The notes beneath the pieces are model-generated. The model worked only from the letters and a program-made list of their open reading frames with translations, was not told where the DNA came from and ran no database searches. Shown here piece after piece: positions 16,656-63,545 of a stretch of DNA of 64,000 nucleotides. The position numbers were made by a program, and so were the translations under genes. Source of the DNA: Chitinophagaceae bacterium. GTDB taxonomy: Bacteria; Bacteroidota; Bacteroidia; Chitinophagales; Chitinophagaceae. The number at the start of each line of letters is the position of its first letter. Position 1 is the first letter of the stretch. Where the stretch lies: NCBI GenBank assembly GCA_017853575.1, contig JAFMJI010000004.1, forward strand, positions 62,001-126,000, written 5' to 3'.

Positions 16656-17231
16656 TTAATCTTTAAACAATTCTTTTTCTGTTAGTTCGCATATAATATG
16701 ACCAACCAGGATATGCATTTCTTGAATTCTAGGAGTAATATTTGACGGAACATTGATGATAAAGTTGGATAAGGGTGTCATTTTACTTTCATTCATCCCA
16801 GTCATGCCAACGGTTGTTATACCAATTTCCTTTGCTTTTTTAAACGCATTTATGATATTCATAGAATTTCCTGATGTTGAGATCCCAAAAAGAAGATCTC
16901 CTTTTTGCCCAACTCCTTCTATTAATCTTTCATATATAAGCTCATATCCATAGTCATTTGCAACAGCAGTCAGATAACTTGTGTTACAATGCAATGCTTC
17001 AGAAGGAAGTGCTTTCCTGTCTTTATAAAATCTACCACTGAATTCTGCTGCCAAGTGTTGGGCATCTGCTGCACTTCCGCCATTCCCGCAGAACCATACT
17101 CGGTTTCCTTTACTGAAACATTCAATCACACGATTCGTTACCTGTTGAATGGTATCTACCAGTACATTATTTTGCAATAATGATTGTTTCAATGTGATGG
17201 ATTCAGAAATAATATTTTTTATTTCATTCAT
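16656..17231 (-). CDS. gmhA: Sedoheptulose-7-phosphate isomerase
   Basis: The 191-residue SIS-domain protein has CGNGGSAADAQHLAAEF (sugar-phosphate loop) and FGISTSGNS. The C-terminal QEMHILVGHIICELTE supplies the conserved His/Glu positions of GmhA. It converts sedoheptulose-7-phosphate to D-glycero-D-manno-heptose-7-phosphate, the first heptose step. Its start overlaps the hddA stop by four bases. Confidence 0.9.
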   Translation of the reverse strand: MNEIKNIISESITLKQSLLQNNVLVDTIQQVTNRVIECFSKGNRVWFCGNGGSAADAQHLAAEFSGRFYKDRKALPSEALHCNTSYLTAVANDYGYELIYERLIEGVGQKGDLLFGISTSGNSMNIINAFKKAKEIGITTVGMTGMNESKMTPLSNFIINVPSNITPRIQEMHILVGHIICELTEKELFKD

Positions 17232-18262
17232 AAAGAATTATTTGATGTCCATGTCGTTAATCCATGTTCAGTAAAAGCATATTCCATTGCTCTGCCACCT
17301 ATAGCACTGAGTTGTTCAATTACTTTGAATCGGGTATTTCCAGGACAATAAAATATCATAAAACCACCACCACCTGCTCCTGATATTTTACCACCAGTTG
17401 CACCCGCTTTTAAGGCAGCAGTGTAAAAACACTCAATGGTTTCATTTGAAATATCATCTGCCATTTTTTTCTTTTCATTGAAACCGAAGTCTAATATATA
17501 TCCCAATTCATCTAAGTTGCCTTTTAGCAATGCGTCTTTCATTAATTTACTCTGCTCTTTCAGCTGATGCATGGCATCAATTGATTTCTCATTTTTTTTC
17601 TGAACATTCTCCTGTTGTTTTCTTATGATATCAGCTGAATTTCTACTTGTAGAAGTATAAAAAAGGAGCAAGTTGTTTTCGAGTTCGTATAAATATTCTT
17701 TTTTGATTCTTAGTGGATTCACAATTACATAATCATCTTTGTAAAATTCCATGAAATTGAAACCGCCAAATGTTGCAGCATATTGGTCTTGCTTGCCACC
17801 TTCCATCTTTAATCTTTCTCTCTCTATCTTAAACGCATACTTGGCAATATCGTACTCGCCAAATGGGATATTCATCATTTCTGAAAATGCACCAATCATA
17901 GAAACAACCAAGGTAGAGGAGGTGCCTAAACCTGAACCAGCTGGGACGTCAACAGAGGTTGTAATGCTTAATCCGCCTTTGATATCTCCATAATCTTCAA
18001 TAATTGAACGATATACACCTGTAAGCAGACTCAAAGGATTTTCAAGGGGGATTTCTTCATTTTTGTTGAAAGAAAAACTTTTTTGTTGATCTATCGAATG
18101 AAATGAGATTATCTCTTCATTTGTTTTTTCAATGTGTGTTCTGGCGCATAGATTGATGGTTGCATTTAATATTGAACCTCCAAATTGATCACTGTATGGA
18201 CTAACATCAGTTCCACCTCCTGCCAAACCTATTCTCAAGGGTGCTTTACTTCTGAATATCAT
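17228..18262 (-). CDS. hddA: D-glycero-alpha-D-manno-heptose-7-phosphate kinase-like GHMP kinase
   Basis: The 344-residue GHMP kinase has RSKAPLRIGLAGGGTDVSPY at the N-terminus, the ATP loop PAGSGLGTSSTL and the C-terminal GGKISGAGGGGFM motif. HddA phosphorylates heptose-7-phosphate at C1 on the way to GDP-heptose, as distinct from the HldE route to ADP-heptose. The ATG at 18262 is chosen over a TTG at 18274. The gene starts 17 bases inside the end of the GT4 gene. Confidence 0.85.
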   Translation of the reverse strand: MIFRSKAPLRIGLAGGGTDVSPYSDQFGGSILNATINLCARTHIEKTNEEIISFHSIDQQKSFSFNKNEEIPLENPLSLLTGVYRSIIEDYGDIKGGLSITTSVDVPAGSGLGTSSTLVVSMIGAFSEMMNIPFGEYDIAKYAFKIERERLKMEGGKQDQYAATFGGFNFMEFYKDDYVIVNPLRIKKEYLYELENNLLLFYTSTSRNSADIIRKQQENVQKKNEKSIDAMHQLKEQSKLMKDALLKGNLDELGYILDFGFNEKKKMADDISNETIECFYTAALKAGATGGKISGAGGGGFMIFYCPGNTRFKVIEQLSAIGGRAMEYAFTEHGLTTWTSNNSL

Positions 18263-19382
18263 TAGAGACTTCAATAATTGTTTTGGTAAAATTAAGCCAA
18301 CTAAATCTTTCTTTTTCTTTGATTAATTGGGGAATGAAAAAGGATTCACCTTTTTCAAAATATTTAACGATTTGATCAGCAATTGAAGTAGGGTTTGGCT
18401 CTGCAATGAGACCTGTTTCACCATTTTTAACCATACTGGGTAAACCACCGACATTGGTGACAATCATTGGTTTTTCAAAATGATATGCCAAAGGAGTAAC
18501 CCCACTTTGGGTTGCCCTTTTATATGGTTGCACGATTACATCTGCAGCGCAACAATAATATTTTACCATGGAGTCTGGTATGAAGTCCTCAATAATTTTA
18601 ATTTGGTTTTTCAAACCAGTTTGATGAATTAAATCCAAGTATGGTTCTTTTTTCTGATAGAATTCACCTGCAACAACCAGGAAATAATTTTTATTCTTTA
18701 TTCTGTCATCACTCATTGCTTGAATGAGCAAATCCAATCCTTTATATTCTCTGATAAATCCAAAAAATAATAAGATGTTTTTATCAATGTCTAATTGAAG
18801 TTTTTTTCTGGAAATATGTTTGTCAATTTTTTCTCCAAAATTGTCGTACAGTGGATGTATGGCTTGTTTTAATGGTTTTTTATTTGTGAACTGCAACAGG
18901 TCATTTGTCACTTTATCACTCATCGTTATAAAGCCATCTATATTTTTCACAAAAAAAGAAGTCAATTGATAATCGCCAATTCTTTTTTCATGTGGTAGAA
19001 TATTATCGGCTATACAAATGATTTTGGTGTGATTATTTTTCCTGATCATTTTGGAGATAATGCCAAAACAAGGAGCCATGAAAGGTATCCAATACCTGAA
19101 TATTACTAAATCTGGATTTTTCTTACAGATCTCTTTTCCAATTTTAATCCAATTGATTGGATTGATTGAATTGATTACAGCATGTATCAATAAATTTTTT
19201 GGTGCAGGTTCACTTGAAAATTGTGATTTGCCTGGAAATAGTAATGATGGGTATTGAAGCGAAAATGAATAAATTTCAACCGAATAATTAGCGTGTTGAA
19301 ATTCAACTGCCATTCGTTCATTGAAGCTGGCCAAACCACCTCTGAGAGGGTGTGCAGGGCCGATGATGATAATCTTTTGCAC
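18246..19382 (-). CDS. GT4-family glycosyltransferase
   Basis: The 378-residue GT-B protein has an N-terminal GPAHPLRGGLASFNERM segment and the C-terminal nucleotide-sugar half: FFGFIREYKGLDLL and EKPMIVTNVGGLPSMV. It probably adds a sugar to a surface glycan. Being directly upstream of the four heptose genes, it is a candidate heptosyltransferase, but its donor is not deducible. The start is a GTG at 19382, six bases after the GT2 stop; no ATG fits. Confidence 0.85.
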   Translation of the reverse strand: MQKIIIIGPAHPLRGGLASFNERMAVEFQHANYSVEIYSFSLQYPSLLFPGKSQFSSEPAPKNLLIHAVINSINPINWIKIGKEICKKNPDLVIFRYWIPFMAPCFGIISKMIRKNNHTKIICIADNILPHEKRIGDYQLTSFFVKNIDGFITMSDKVTNDLLQFTNKKPLKQAIHPLYDNFGEKIDKHISRKKLQLDIDKNILLFFGFIREYKGLDLLIQAMSDDRIKNKNYFLVVAGEFYQKKEPYLDLIHQTGLKNQIKIIEDFIPDSMVKYYCCAADVIVQPYKRATQSGVTPLAYHFEKPMIVTNVGGLPSMVKNGETGLIAEPNPTSIADQIVKYFEKGESFFIPQLIKEKERFSWLNFTKTIIEVSNDIQK

Positions 19383-19388
19383 AAATTA

Positions 19389-20333
19389 TTAGTTGAATCC
19401 AACTTCTGTTTCGATGTTGTAATTATTTCTATCTGGAGCACCCCTTGAGATCATTTCACTAATAAAACCAGCTAAAAATAGTTGGGTTCCTATCACCATG
19501 GAGGTCAATGAAATGTAAAATGCAGGTCTGGAAGTAATTGCATAATCAAAATTGATCATTTTGGAAACAATCAAATAACCGCTGGTAATAAATCCGATTA
19601 AAAAAGCAAATACACCCAATAAACCAAAAAATTGCATTGGCTTTTTTCTGAATTTACCAATGAACATGATGGTAGCAAGATCCAAGAAACCATTTACAAA
19701 TCTTTCCCATCCAAATTTGGTCGTTCCATATTTTCTTGCCCTGTGTTCAACTTCCTTTTCACCGATTCTTGTATAACCTTGCCATTTAGCCAACACCGGT
19801 ATGTAACGGTGCATTTCACCATATACTTCAATTCCCTTAATTACTTCATTCTTATAAGCTTTGAGTCCACAATTAAAGTCATGCAATTTGATGCCTGACA
19901 TTTTTCTTGTAACAGCATTAAAGAATTTTGAAGGGATATTTTTGGTAAGCAGATTGTCATATCTTTTCTTTTTCCATCCACTCACCAAATCATAATTTTC
20001 ATTTTTGACTTTTGAATACAACGAAGGAATTTCATCCGGACTGTCCTGCAGGTCAGCATCCATTGTTATGACAACATCACCCTTTGCTTCTCTAAAGGCC
20101 ACATTGAGTGCTGCAGATTTTCCATAATTACGTTTGAATTTGATTCCTTTAAACCTGCTGTCATGTTTAGAAATCTCTGTAATCACCGCCCACGACTGAT
20201 CTTTGCTGCCGTCGTCGACGAGAATTGTTTCAAAGCTGAATTGGTTTGATTCCATGACGCGCTTGATCCATTGAGTCAATTCTGGCAATGATTCCGCTTC
20301 GTCTTTCAGTGGTATGACTACTGTTATATCCAT
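19389..20333 (-). CDS. GT2-family glycosyltransferase (DPM1/ArnC type) with C-terminal membrane helices
   Basis: The 314-residue protein begins with a GT-A fold: VVIPLKDEAESL, VDDGSKDQSW and the DxD-like MDADLQDSPDEI. Two transmembrane helices follow (about residues 232-300). It resembles enzymes that charge polyprenyl phosphate with a sugar. Its position between DUF4199 and the GT4 gene next to a dihydroorotase-like gene is a recurring arrangement in Bacteroidota. The gene directly abuts the DUF4199 stop. Confidence 0.87.
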   Translation of the reverse strand: MDITVVIPLKDEAESLPELTQWIKRVMESNQFSFETILVDDGSKDQSWAVITEISKHDSRFKGIKFKRNYGKSAALNVAFREAKGDVVITMDADLQDSPDEIPSLYSKVKNENYDLVSGWKKKRYDNLLTKNIPSKFFNAVTRKMSGIKLHDFNCGLKAYKNEVIKGIEVYGEMHRYIPVLAKWQGYTRIGEKEVEHRARKYGTTKFGWERFVNGFLDLATIMFIGKFRKKPMQFFGLLGVFAFLIGFITSGYLIVSKMINFDYAITSRPAFYISLTSMVIGTQLFLAGFISEMISRGAPDRNNYNIETEVGFN

Positions 20334-20876
20334 TTAGAATTCTACTTCAGGTTTTTTCTTTTTGATGATCGCAGAAACAATCAACGCTTCAATAAAATAC
20401 ATGATACATGCATAAGCAAAAGACTTGGATAACGCGCTGAATGAAAACATATCTTGTTCAGTTAATTTATCAACTGCTTTTTCCATTTCACTTTCAGGGA
20501 CGTTGAATTTCTGCATCGTCTCTTGTGCTTTTTCAATGGTTAATTGTTTCATTCGTTCTGCAAAAGCTACGTCGAATACATTAAAAATAAAGTGCGATAC
20601 AATTGTACTGATCAGTCCTGTTATAACAAAGACGCCAAATGTTATCTTGAGCGCCTCTTTAAAATCTAAATACCCGTTGTTTTTCTTTTTTACTTGCAAT
20701 GCACCCAAAACGGCAAAAAGAACCGGGAACAAATATGAAGAAATCCAAGCAACCGGACTCATAAAATATTCAGCTCCAAGAATATATAGCACTACAAAAA
20801 TCAAAACGGCTGCTCCAGCTGAAAATAATCCATATTGCAACGTTTCTTTGTTATGCAAAGTTGAAATCTTTTCCAT
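20334..20876 (-). CDS. DUF4199 membrane protein
   Basis: The 180-residue protein has about four membrane segments: near residues 13-33, 38-58, 75-97 and 150-170. The loop between the last two is charged and helical. It fits DUF4199, a Bacteroidetes family with no known function. It lies between the dihydroorotase-like and GT2 genes, six bases from one and adjoining the other. A role with the polyprenyl-linked sugar enzyme is plausible but unproven. Confidence 0.8.
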   Translation of the reverse strand: MEKISTLHNKETLQYGLFSAGAAVLIFVVLYILGAEYFMSPVAWISSYLFPVLFAVLGALQVKKKNNGYLDFKEALKITFGVFVITGLISTIVSHFIFNVFDVAFAERMKQLTIEKAQETMQKFNVPESEMEKAVDKLTEQDMFSFSALSKSFAYACIMYFIEALIVSAIIKKKKPEVEF

Positions 20877-20882
20877 CGAGTA

Positions 20883-22136
20883 TTAGGATTTAAATATGTT
20901 GTTTTTGAAAATGGTCGTTACAGATTTTCCTTTGTACGAACGACCAAAGTAAGCTGAATTATTCGATTTGGATTTGTTTTTCTCTGCATCGAAAATTCCC
21001 TCAGATTCAATTTCAAAAAGGGTTAAGTCTGCTTGATTACCCACTTCAATTTGATTTTCAATTTTAAATATTCTTCTAGGTTGAAAGCAAATACACTCCA
21101 GAATAGCTTCTGTGCTTAAACCAGTTGTGCCAAGCATTCCAAAGGCTGCTTCTAGTCCCAAGGTTCCATATCCTGCATATTCAAATTCGCAAATCTTTGC
21201 ATCTTTATTTTGAGCGGTATGGTGTGTAGAAACGCAATCAATCGTTCCATCCTTGATTCCTTTTATCAATGCTTTTCGATCTTTATCAGACCGCAGTGGG
21301 GGATTGACCTTTAAATTGGTATTATATCCAATTAAGTCTTTATCTGTAAAAATGCAATGGTGAAGGGTAGTAGAACAGGTAACTTTTACGCCTTCTTTCT
21401 TTGCTTTTTTTATCATGTCGACAGAAGTCGATAAACTTATACCTGTTATGTGGATATTGGATTGTGTATACCTCGCAAGTTCAATATCTCTTGCAACCAT
21501 GATTTCTTCTGCTAGAGCAGGTTTTCCTGGTAGGCCAATTTGTGTTGATACAATTCCTTCATTCATCTGGCCATGTGGAGCAACTGATTGGTCATCTGGT
21601 ATTTGTATAATTACACCGTCAAATGCTGAAACATATTGTAAAGCCTTGATCAAAAGGCCTGCTGATTGAATTGATTTCGTTCCATCACCAAATGCAATAG
21701 CACCAGCAGTATGCATATCAAACATTTCTGTAAGTTCCTTTCCATCGGTATTTTTAGTTACTGCACCAATTGGATGAATGTTACAGAGTAATGCTCTGCT
21801 TGAATTAATTACATACTCAACACCCGTTTTTGACTGCATAACAGGATTTGTATTGGGGGAAACAAATACATGTGTGAATCCTCCTGTAGCAGCTGAATTG
21901 GATAGGCTTTTCAGGTCATCTTTGAATTCATACCCAGGGTCTGTTCCAACAGTAAAAATATCGACCCAGCCAGGCGTTACGGATTTACCATTCGCATCAA
22001 ATATCTCGTCAGCCTTGGTTTTAATTGACGTTGCGATCTCAGTGATGACACCATCGGAAATGAGGATGTCTTTAACAGTATTAAAGTGTGATGAGTGTTT
22101 GTCCTTTATAAGCGCTTGGCGGACAAGTATCGTCAT
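20883..22136 (-). CDS. Dihydroorotase-like amidohydrolase, predicted catalytically inactive
   Basis: The 417-residue protein aligns with class I dihydroorotase throughout, including [13 protein letters not shown] and GLEAAFGML. However, the metal motif DxHxHxREPG reads [10 protein letters not shown] (residues 59-68), so both His and the substrate Arg are lost. The late catalytic Asp of ATDHAPH is His305 (STHHTAQ). The family includes non-catalytic PyrC' proteins that support aspartate transcarbamoylase assembly in Pseudomonas. Such a role is inference. ATG 22136 is chosen because upstream codons overlap the promoter at 22152-22159. It heads the nine-gene envelope operon. Confidence 0.85.
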
Positions 22137-22151
22137 AATCGATGAATTAAG

Positions 22152-22159
22152 CAAAGATA
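22152..22159 (-). promoter_or_regulatory. -7 element of the dihydroorotase-like/heptose operon
   Basis: TATCTTTG on the reverse strand, 15 bases before the ATG at 22136. No other consensus element is obvious within the 14.5-22.1 kb run, so this may drive all nine genes. Confidence 0.55.
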
Positions 22160-22226: not shown

Positions 22227-22300
22227 CGGGAAGTGGCGCAGCCCGGTAGCGCACTTGTATGGGGTGCAAGGGGTCGCCAGTTCGAATCTGGTCTTCCCGA
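22227..22300 (+). tRNA. tRNA-Pro (anticodon GGG)
   Basis: The 74-base cloverleaf has acceptor stem CGGGAAG/CTTCCCG with discriminator A, D arm GCGCAGCCCGGTAGCGC, and T loop TTCGAAT. The anticodon stem-loop CTTGT-ATGGGGT-GCAAG puts GGG at 22261-22263, which reads the Pro codon CCC (and CCU by wobble). G37 is present. CCA is not encoded. A terminator follows at 22307-22333. Confidence 0.95.
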
Positions 22301-22306
22301 CTGAAT

Positions 22307-60376: not shown

Positions 60377-61012
60377 TTAAAGTCCTGGAGTCCAATTTGA
60401 AGGATCTAGTCGCCAGTTTAACAAGGTTTTCTGCTCCTCTTGACCAACCAGCCCTTTTTCAACGGCCAGCTCAATCATGCTGGAATAATTCGTGAGCGAT
60501 ACGGAAGGAATATTTGCAGCCTTACATGCAATCTCAGCAGCTTCAAATCCATAGGTAAAAATCGATACCATACCCATCACTTCCAATCCTGCATTTCTGA
60601 CAACTTCTACAACCTGTAAACTACTTTTCCCTGTAGAAATCAAATCCTCAATTATTACAGTCTTCATCCCTTTCTCAAAATACCCTTCAATTTGGTTGCC
60701 CAATCCATGTTCTTTGGGTTTTGGTCTGACATATATGTATGGAAGTTTCAGTTGATCCGCCGACATCGCACCCCATGCTATACCTGCTGTAGCAACACCA
60801 GCCAACAACTCAGCATCTGGAAATTTTTCAAAAATGACATTGCACATTTCACTTTTGATAAAATCTCTCACGTATGGAAAACCCAAGACCTTTCTGTTGT
60901 CGCAATAAATAGGACTTTTCCAGCCTGAAGCCCAGGTAAAAGGTTCTTTAGGATTCAACTTTACTGCATTAACTTGTAGCAGTTTTTCAGCTACGGTTCT
61001 TTCATTTGTCAT
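60377..61012 (-). CDS. pyrE: Orotate phosphoribosyltransferase
   Basis: The 211-residue type I phosphoribosyltransferase has SGWKSPIYCDNR at the N-terminus, YVRPKPKEHGLGNQIEG and the PRPP motif VIIEDLISTGKSS. It makes orotidine monophosphate from orotate and PRPP. ATG 61012 is chosen because MTNERTVAEKLLQ fits the family start; 61030 is also possible. It is divergent from the Nudix gene and followed by the HMA gene. Confidence 0.94.
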   Translation of the reverse strand: MTNERTVAEKLLQVNAVKLNPKEPFTWASGWKSPIYCDNRKVLGFPYVRDFIKSEMCNVIFEKFPDAELLAGVATAGIAWGAMSADQLKLPYIYVRPKPKEHGLGNQIEGYFEKGMKTVIIEDLISTGKSSLQVVEVVRNAGLEVMGMVSIFTYGFEAAEIACKAANIPSVSLTNYSSMIELAVEKGLVGQEEQKTLLNWRLDPSNWTPGL

Positions 61013-61055
61013 GCAGCAAATTTGGATCATGCTGGGGATATACAGAAATTAAGTT

Positions 61056-62021: not shown

Positions 62022-62957
62022 TTAAGCATTTGCGTCTCTTCTGCCTGAGAGCAAATATAGTACTGCCATTCTTACTGCAACGCCATTTTCTACCTGATCT
62101 AAGATGATTGATTGTCCGCTGTCCGCAACATCAGAATCCAATTCCACTCCACGGTTAATTGGACCAGGATGCATGATGATGATTTCTTTTTTAAGTGCAG
62201 CAAGCAGGGATTTGGTAATACCGTAGGCCCTGTTGTATTCTCTGAGGGAAGAGAATAAAACCTGGTTTTGTCTTTCAAGTTGTATACGAAGTACATTGGC
62301 GGCATCACACCAATCCAATGCTTCTTTTACACTATAGGTAACATTGATTCCGAATGAATCCTTTAAATATTTTGGGATCAGTGTTGGTGGACCAGCAACG
62401 GTAACATCAGCACCCATTTTTGTTAACAAATAAATATTGCTCAACGCTACTCTTGAGTGCATGATATCGCCAATAATAGCAACTTTCTTTCCTTTGAGTG
62501 CACCCAACTTTTCCTGAATTGATAAAGCGTCTAGCAAGGCCTGAGTTGGATGTTCATTGATTCCGTCGCCTGCATTGATTATAGCTGCTGGGATATGTTG
62601 AGCAAGAAAATGGGGTGCGCCGGTAGCACTGTGTCGCATCACAACCATATCCACTTTCATTGATAAGATATTATTGACGGTATCCAACAAGGTTTCTCCC
62701 TTTGAGACTGATGAACCACTTGCAGAAAAATTAATGGTATCGGCACTTAATCTTTTCTCTGCTAATTCAAAAGAGATACGTGTACGAGTAGAATTTTCAT
62801 AAAAAAGGTTTACTATGGTAACATCACGCAAGGATGGGACCTTTTTAATTGGACGTTGTAAAACTTCTTTGAATTGCTTTGCCGTATCTAAAATAAGTTG
62901 GATATCCTTCTGATGAAGGTCTCTAATGCCAAGCAGATGTTTTGTACTAAGCTGCAT
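62022..62957 (-). CDS. pyrB: Aspartate carbamoyltransferase catalytic subunit
   Basis: The 311-residue protein has the carbamoyl-phosphate motif FYENSTRTRISFELA, VVMRHSATGAPH, and GDGINEHPTQALLD. It condenses aspartate and carbamoyl phosphate in pyrimidine synthesis. No pyrI regulatory subunit gene lies next to it, as is common in Bacteroidota. pyrR is 49 bases upstream. A non-catalytic dihydroorotase-like protein (20883-22136) could be its assembly partner; that is only inference. Confidence 0.96.
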   Translation of the reverse strand: MQLSTKHLLGIRDLHQKDIQLILDTAKQFKEVLQRPIKKVPSLRDVTIVNLFYENSTRTRISFELAEKRLSADTINFSASGSSVSKGETLLDTVNNILSMKVDMVVMRHSATGAPHFLAQHIPAAIINAGDGINEHPTQALLDALSIQEKLGALKGKKVAIIGDIMHSRVALSNIYLLTKMGADVTVAGPPTLIPKYLKDSFGINVTYSVKEALDWCDAANVLRIQLERQNQVLFSSLREYNRAYGITKSLLAALKKEIIIMHPGPINRGVELDSDVADSGQSIILDQVENGVAVRMAVLYLLSGRRDANA

Positions 62958-63006: not shown

Positions 63007-63516
63007 TTACACACTTTCATACAAAATCACTTTCTTCTCTTCTCCCCAGTAAACCTTCACTTTTTGCGTTACGATAGAGTCAATAGATTTTCCCACATAA
63101 TCAGGATGGATCGGCAATTCCCTACTAAATTTTCTATCTACCAGTATGCACAACTCTACTTTTTTTGCTCTACCATGATCAAGCAATGCATCCATTGCAG
63201 CTCGAATGGTTCTTCCTGTATACAATACGTCATCTATCAGAATGACATTTTTGTTTTCGATGGAAAAGGGCAAATCTGTAATGCTTGGAATATGGATTTG
63301 TCCGCGAAAATCATCCCTGTAAAATGTAATATCTAATTTTCCGTAATTGAGCTTTACGTTAGGGTGAATTTCTTTGATGTATTCAGTGATAAAATCACTG
63401 ATAACAATTCCTCTTGGCTGAATACCAATCAGACAAGTGTCTTCAAATGGAAAATGATTTTCAATCAACTCATGTGCCAGCCTTTGTAAGGTTAGTCTGA
63501 GTTGCTTCTCTTCCAT
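63007..63516 (-). CDS. pyrR: PyrR-like pyrimidine operon regulator/uracil phosphoribosyltransferase
   Basis: The 169-residue type I phosphoribosyltransferase fold has CLIGIQPRGIVISDF, the PRPP motif VILIDDVLYTGRTIRAAMD and LVDRKFSRELPIHPDYVG. PyrR binds pyr mRNA in Bacillus and also makes UMP. The ATG at 63516 has an unusually good AGGAG ten bases upstream and fits the family length; ATG 63537 would add seven residues and sit almost on the transcription start. pyrB and coaD follow. Confidence 0.9.
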   Translation of the reverse strand: MEEKQLRLTLQRLAHELIENHFPFEDTCLIGIQPRGIVISDFITEYIKEIHPNVKLNYGKLDITFYRDDFRGQIHIPSITDLPFSIENKNVILIDDVLYTGRTIRAAMDALLDHGRAKKVELCILVDRKFSRELPIHPDYVGKSIDSIVTQKVKVYWGEEKKVILYESV

Positions 63517-63545
63517 AATGGTATTCACTCCTTTCATAATGTAGT

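Follow-up and report, generated by a model that had tools for sequence, protein, structure and literature searches.

In Pseudomonas, the gene pyrC' adjoins pyrB, the gene for the aspartate transcarbamoylase (ATCase) PyrB. According to the part of PMC7053772 at hand, class A1 ATCases contain a live dihydroorotase (DHO), whereas the class A2 enzyme of Pseudomonas contains a dead one, which is needed for the trimerisation of PyrB. The ligand and catalytic residues of the Aquifex DHO are H61, H63, D153, H180, H232 and D305, as given in the available portion of PMC3880350. A literature search, which covered few subscription journals, yielded no report of such a catalytically dead DHO in Bacteroidota and thus speaks only weakly for novelty.

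The window analysed here, a stretch of 64,000 nucleotides from a Chitinophagaceae bacterium with a genome of 2.32 Mb (99.6% complete), contains a gene for a DHO-like protein, PyrC', and a pyrB gene, which lie on one contig at a distance of about 40 kb (Table 1). The start of PyrC' is the ATG at 22136; the mechanical open reading frame begins at the TTG at 22154, which falls within the promoter-like TATCTTTG. The Bacteroidota -7 promoter consensus is TAnnTTTG, and the promoter assignment is weak because the motif turns up in the window no more often than chance would give (56 found versus 80 expected). The earlier note had put PyrC' at the head of an envelope operon, which agrees with the window, where the DUF4199, both glycosyltransferase and the HddA-like kinase genes lie downstream on the same strand, but not with most other Bacteroidia, where a BatA-like gene comes before PyrC'; the remark is a description of local gene order.

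Table 1 Features of the window and their coordinates
Feature	Position	Strand	Remarks
GHMP kinase, HddA-like	17228..18274	-	below HddA model cut-off: 370.7 of 600 bits
GT4-type glycosyltransferase	18246..19382	-	PF00534, E 3.3e-22
Family-2 glycosyltransferase (GT2)	19389..20333	-	PF00535, E 3.4e-31
DUF4199 membrane protein	20334..20876	-	6 nt behind PyrC'; PF13858, E 5.8e-25
PyrC'	20883..22136	-	417 aa; type-I DHO fold in which metal ligands and catalytic Asp are lost
TATCTTTG	22152..22159	-	promoter-like, weak; matches the Bacteroidota -7 consensus
tRNA-Pro (ggg)	22227-22301	+	divergent from PyrC', just upstream
PyrE-like orotate phosphoribosyltransferase	60377..61030	-	near pyrB; named by reading the sequence alone
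PyrB, proposed partner	62022..62957	-	TIGR00670, 319.8 bits
PyrR-like protein	63007..63537	-	upstream of pyrB; named by reading the sequence alone

In the alignment with intact relatives, the window PyrC' carries F61 and V63 at the HxH positions, T65 at the position of the substrate-binding Arg and H305 at that of the catalytic Asp, and it keeps the NPPLR motif (residues 278-282), exactly as the earlier note had described. The loss of metal ligands claimed there turned out to go further, with G152, I179 and G232 standing at the positions of Aquifex D153, H180 and H232, so the protein keeps 0/6 of the metal and catalytic residues by which a catalytic type-I DHO is recognized. At the motif level, DIFTVGT stands where intact relatives have DxHxHxR, and HHTAQ is found in place of TDHAPH. 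HxH and TDH are also absent in 13/13 close homologues encoded by other genomes (L019-L031, identity 60-76%), and the fragment homologue L032 has no HxH either, so the loss of the active site is no sequencing fluke. The AlphaFold2 model of the protein is a confident DHO fold (pLDDT 92.5, pTM 0.92), for which the top PDB matches are 4bjh_A and 3d6n_A (Z 56, 1.8 Å over 413 residues), both of them structures of ATCase-bound Aquifex DHO. Entries for the free Aquifex enzyme match less well (Z 46-48), at least partly because they model fewer residues.

The whole-genome profile search for a second pyrC, proposed in the earlier note with HxH and ATDHAPH as its marks, produced one other full-length TIGR00857 match, on contig C15 (C15:326328-327662), so the case of a genome with no second pyrC, which would have spoken against a non-catalytic PyrC', did not occur. 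The C15 protein scores 668 bits to NF006688, the PRK09236-type dihydroorotase model, and its motifs DDQVHFREPG and ATDHAPH are intact; of the two marks only ATDHAPH is present, HxH being replaced by QxH. Since DDQVHFR is found in 31/31 such proteins checked, a literal HxH filter would miss a live-looking pyrC. Judging by its motifs, the C15 gene is likely to be the real, competent pyrC of the genome. It would thus perform the reaction meant by the name PyrC; it differs from PyrC' in possessing DDQVHFR and ATDHAPH and in belonging to another subfamily, much less similar to the type-I DHOs. The annotation problem foreseen in the earlier note is a real one: PyrC' scores 311.4-311.7 bits to TIGR00857 against a curated cut-off of 279.05, so this model alone cannot separate dead from live DHOs, and the C15 protein reaches only 295.3 bits, so that best-hit annotation would pick the wrong gene as pyrC. 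Of the 25 profile matches listed, 24 are to equivalog models, and PyrC' stays below the cut-off of every one of these. PRK09236-type DHOases exceed their model cut-off in 132/149 Bacteroidia genomes.

When the same 149 genomes were searched for PyrC', 128 gave a strong match (E 1e-54 or better), 16 a weak match only and five none. In three of the weak-match genomes (G163, G171 and G233), a BatA-like gene is followed by a diverged PyrC'. The six ligand and catalytic residues were read in 138 proteins, from 127 of the 128 strong-match genomes and 11 same-class genomes from a phylum search, leaving out those three diverged proteins and G166, in which the strong match lies on a contig-edge fragment. 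From zero to three residues are kept in 136 of the 138 (none in 23, one in 48, two in 32 and three in 33), one protein keeps four, and only that of G072 keeps all six. In a FastTree phylogeny, the 137 PyrC' rows cluster in a single clade that contains no intact protein (support 0.896), and 29/30 type-I DHO rows labelled active, G072 of Bacteroidia among them, keep all six residues; the thirtieth, L281 (G016) from outside Bacteroidia, is dead.

PyrI, the regulatory chain of class B ATCases, was found in 5/149 Bacteroidia genomes of the draw and in 93/99 Bacteroidales and had no match in the source genome, and none of the 99 Bacteroidales genomes gave a strong PyrC' match (best E 2e-31, 26% identity). 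Among 245 distinct genomes (the 149 of the class draw and the 99 Bacteroidales, three in common), 95 have PyrI, 128 have a strong PyrC' and none has both, an exclusion that largely mirrors one clade. PyrB itself was found in 144/149 Bacteroidia genomes, only weakly in the 0.5-Mb genome G168. In the PyrB tree, 27/27 rows from PyrC'-containing genomes fall into one clade (support 99/99), and in a larger tree 87 such rows again form one clade without other rows inside (support 0.913), with about 40 other PyrC'-containing class genomes left out of the trees; the PyrB proteins of PyrC'-less Bacteroidia lie outside this clade. Identity to the window PyrB is 58-79% for PyrC'-containing genomes, 41-50% for seven PyrC'-less genomes of families f4, f69 and f76, and 32-35% for six genomes with PyrI. 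For PyrB encoded beside type-I DHOs it is 47-65%, with a median of 59 in 15 rows that come almost entirely from other classes and phyla, so that most of them resemble the window PyrB more than the PyrB of PyrC'-less classmates does; both in this comparison and in the PyrB trees G016 (L281) carries an active label although its DHO is dead. The PyrB branches of G012, f69, f76 and G072 are either long or insecurely placed, and Treekit gave a long-branch warning for G012, G226, G072, G016 and others, so a 'replacement' of PyrB in PyrC'-less Bacteroidia is what we infer from the tree; fast divergence of PyrB after the loss of a partner would look like replacement and would also fit. The genome G274 possesses two PyrB genes (L122, L367), of which one belongs to the native clade and the other groups in the tree with the PyrI-type PyrB; this assembly of 220 contigs may be contaminated.

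Several genomes can be regarded as natural experiments. In G262, which has PyrI, the BatA-like gene is directly followed by the DUF4199 and GT2 genes with no PyrC' gene between them. In G072, an intact type-I DHO is encoded behind pyrB, and BatA, DUF4199 and GT2 genes are present without PyrC' among them. The f66 genomes (G180, G213 and G239) have neither a PyrB match nor PyrC' and keep BatA. These three also lack a PRK09236-type DHOase over the cut-off, yet possess a class-1 PyrD over the cut-off, and either their pyrimidine pathway is unusual or its genes are very diverged; the pyrD search (TIGR01037) says little on whether G163 and f66 have lost the pathway, since the source genome itself matches this model only weakly.

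Family f10, which belongs to a class other than Bacteroidia, encodes a dead DHO keeping zero or one of the six residues directly behind pyrB in 4/4 genomes (L406 in G016, L408 in G001, L410 in G011 and L412 in G006), and each genome has a second DHO elsewhere with the His ligands and the Asp intact. Intact type-I DHO genes adjoin pyrB in 27/28 intact-type loci (L033-L062 without L035 and L061) and in 7/20 other-class loci, where an eighth, L281, is dead. A partly degenerate type-I DHO, L419 from G096, reads YRGEDFHRDHY at eleven checked positions and is possibly a third loss of the DHO active site; G096 also has a PRK09236-like DHOase. A DHO homologue of a Helicobacteraceae MAG (L063, 3951-5057; 28% identical) possesses neither HxH nor TDH, and no pyrB was found within the fetched locus.

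On this evidence PyrC' is best explained, by analogy with Pseudomonas, as a pseudo-dihydroorotase that is probably a non-catalytic subunit of a class-A2-like ATCase. Since it is retained across Bacteroidia where the native PyrB is retained, it is probably the structural partner of PyrB, and its 'dihydroorotase' label is misleading. The association of the two proteins, at which the earlier note had merely hinted by proposing a pull-down with PyrB, is supported by comparative genomics, not by experiment. It is favoured by the class-wide retention of a protein that has lost its active site, by the separate DHOase with intact motifs, by the exclusion of PyrC' from PyrI genomes and its restriction to one PyrB clade, by G262, G072 and f66, by the f10 arrangement together with the common position of intact type-I DHO genes behind pyrB, and by the best fit of the predicted structure to the ATCase-bound Aquifex DHO. 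Dimers of the dead DHO would hold two PyrB trimers in a dodecamer, as in the Pseudomonas class A2 enzyme, and PyrC' may be needed for the trimerisation or stability of PyrB; binding, stoichiometry and any effect on PyrB activity are drawn purely from that analogy. In an ancestor of Bacteroidia, the DHO associated with PyrB would still have been an active type-I enzyme, which presumably lost its catalysis after the reaction had passed to a PRK09236-type DHOase.

Gene order and evolutionary rates point in another direction. Within the fetched flanks, pyrB was found near PyrC' in only 2/138 genomes, namely G072, with its intact DHO, and G235, at about 3 kb, whereas a BatA-like membrane-protein gene lies directly upstream in 108/138, usually overlapping PyrC' or a few nt apart. 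This gene encodes about 680 aa (L165, L166 and most loci), and PF07584 was detected in the one member scanned; in G226 the contig ends behind it. In the 46 genomes with all three proteins (G072, G196 and G188 left out), the partial correlation of evolutionary distances is 0.59 between PyrC' and BatA and 0.28 between PyrC' and PyrB, the latter reached in 39/2000 permutations, so that the mirror-tree result, if anything, leans to BatA. Moreover, G163 and G271, assemblies of 230 and 360 contigs, possess PyrC' with no PyrB found, that of G163 being one of the diverged proteins behind BatA. The linkage, the rate covariation and these two genomes count against a subunit of PyrB, and an envelope role is therefore kept as the main rival, in which PyrC' is a subunit of a complex with the BatA-like protein, DUF4199 and the glycosyltransferase and its link to pyrimidines is mere ancestry. 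We consider this unlikely: it fails to predict the exclusion of PyrI or the single PyrB clade, no BatA-like match was found in three genomes with PyrC' (the source genome, G115 and G126), those of G007, G033 and G091 are weak and partial, and G180, G213, G239, G262, G349, G290 and G072 have a full-length BatA without an adjacent PyrC'. As each protein occurs without the other, an obligate dependence of PyrC' on BatA is unsupported. It is also conceivable, though quite improbable, that in much of Bacteroidia PyrC' couples ATCase physically to the BatA-DUF4199-glycosyltransferase cluster, scaffolding the first committed pyrimidine/UDP-sugar step while sensing the envelope.

A new catalytic or ligand-binding activity in the pocket would be compatible with the intact fold of the AlphaFold2 model and with the near-invariance of K276, R282, H306, K314 and E317, as well as P279, in 135 sequences (L253 of G196 with its split frame, L252 of G188 with its stops and the intact L163 of G072 left out). 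We regard it as very unlikely, as the old ligand positions differ between lineages: the conservation ranks of the six positions and N278 run from 146 to 388 of 417, five of the seven are worse than rank 250, and columns 61, 63, 232 and 278 rank 348-388. Because the lost ligand positions are so poorly conserved, no substitute active site is visible, and one shared at the old pocket is unlikely where positions vary so freely among lineages. Decay without function might be suspected from G196, where PyrC' is split across two frames, and from G188 with its internal stops, and is highly improbable given the long open frames in nearly all class genomes and the near-invariant residues outside the pocket. 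That PyrC' is an active dihydroorotase of unusual mechanism is hardly credible in spite of its TIGR00857 score, with all six residues missing and a motif-intact DHOase present in the genome.

If PyrC' is indeed a subunit of ATCase, then in most Bacteroidia outside Bacteroidales the enzyme is partnered by a dead rather than a live DHO, Bacteroidales having adopted the PyrB-PyrI enzyme instead, and PyrC' is misnamed as 'dihydroorotase' class-wide. Metabolic models using its gene as pyrC would assign the reaction to the wrong gene. The f10 proteins represent at least one further inactivation beside pyrB, which makes the repeated evolution of pseudo-DHO subunits testable.

Among the known systems, the best structural match is the class A1 DHO-ATC complex of Aquifex aeolicus (3d6n, 4bjh), the six residues of which map to window positions 61, 63, 152, 179, 232 and 305; it differs in that its DHO is a working catalyst while bound to ATCase. 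The fungal pseudo-DHO domain of the Ura2 type, likened here by description, is also a dead DHO fold joined to ATCase, as stated in the available part of PMC7053772, although it is fused to CPSase and ATCase. With the class A2 pseudo-DHO of Pseudomonas, PyrC' of Bacteroidia shares homology to DHO and the lack of zinc ligands, and the source genome shares a separate DHOase with apparently intact motifs and the lack of PyrI. The difference is in the location of the gene, which lies in an envelope-type cluster and not beside pyrB; the latter layout is absent in the source genome and seen with the f10 dead DHOs. Gene order is no part of the definition of the class A2 pseudo-DHO protein, and PyrC', a candidate for it by its sequence features, most likely works like the class A2 subunit.
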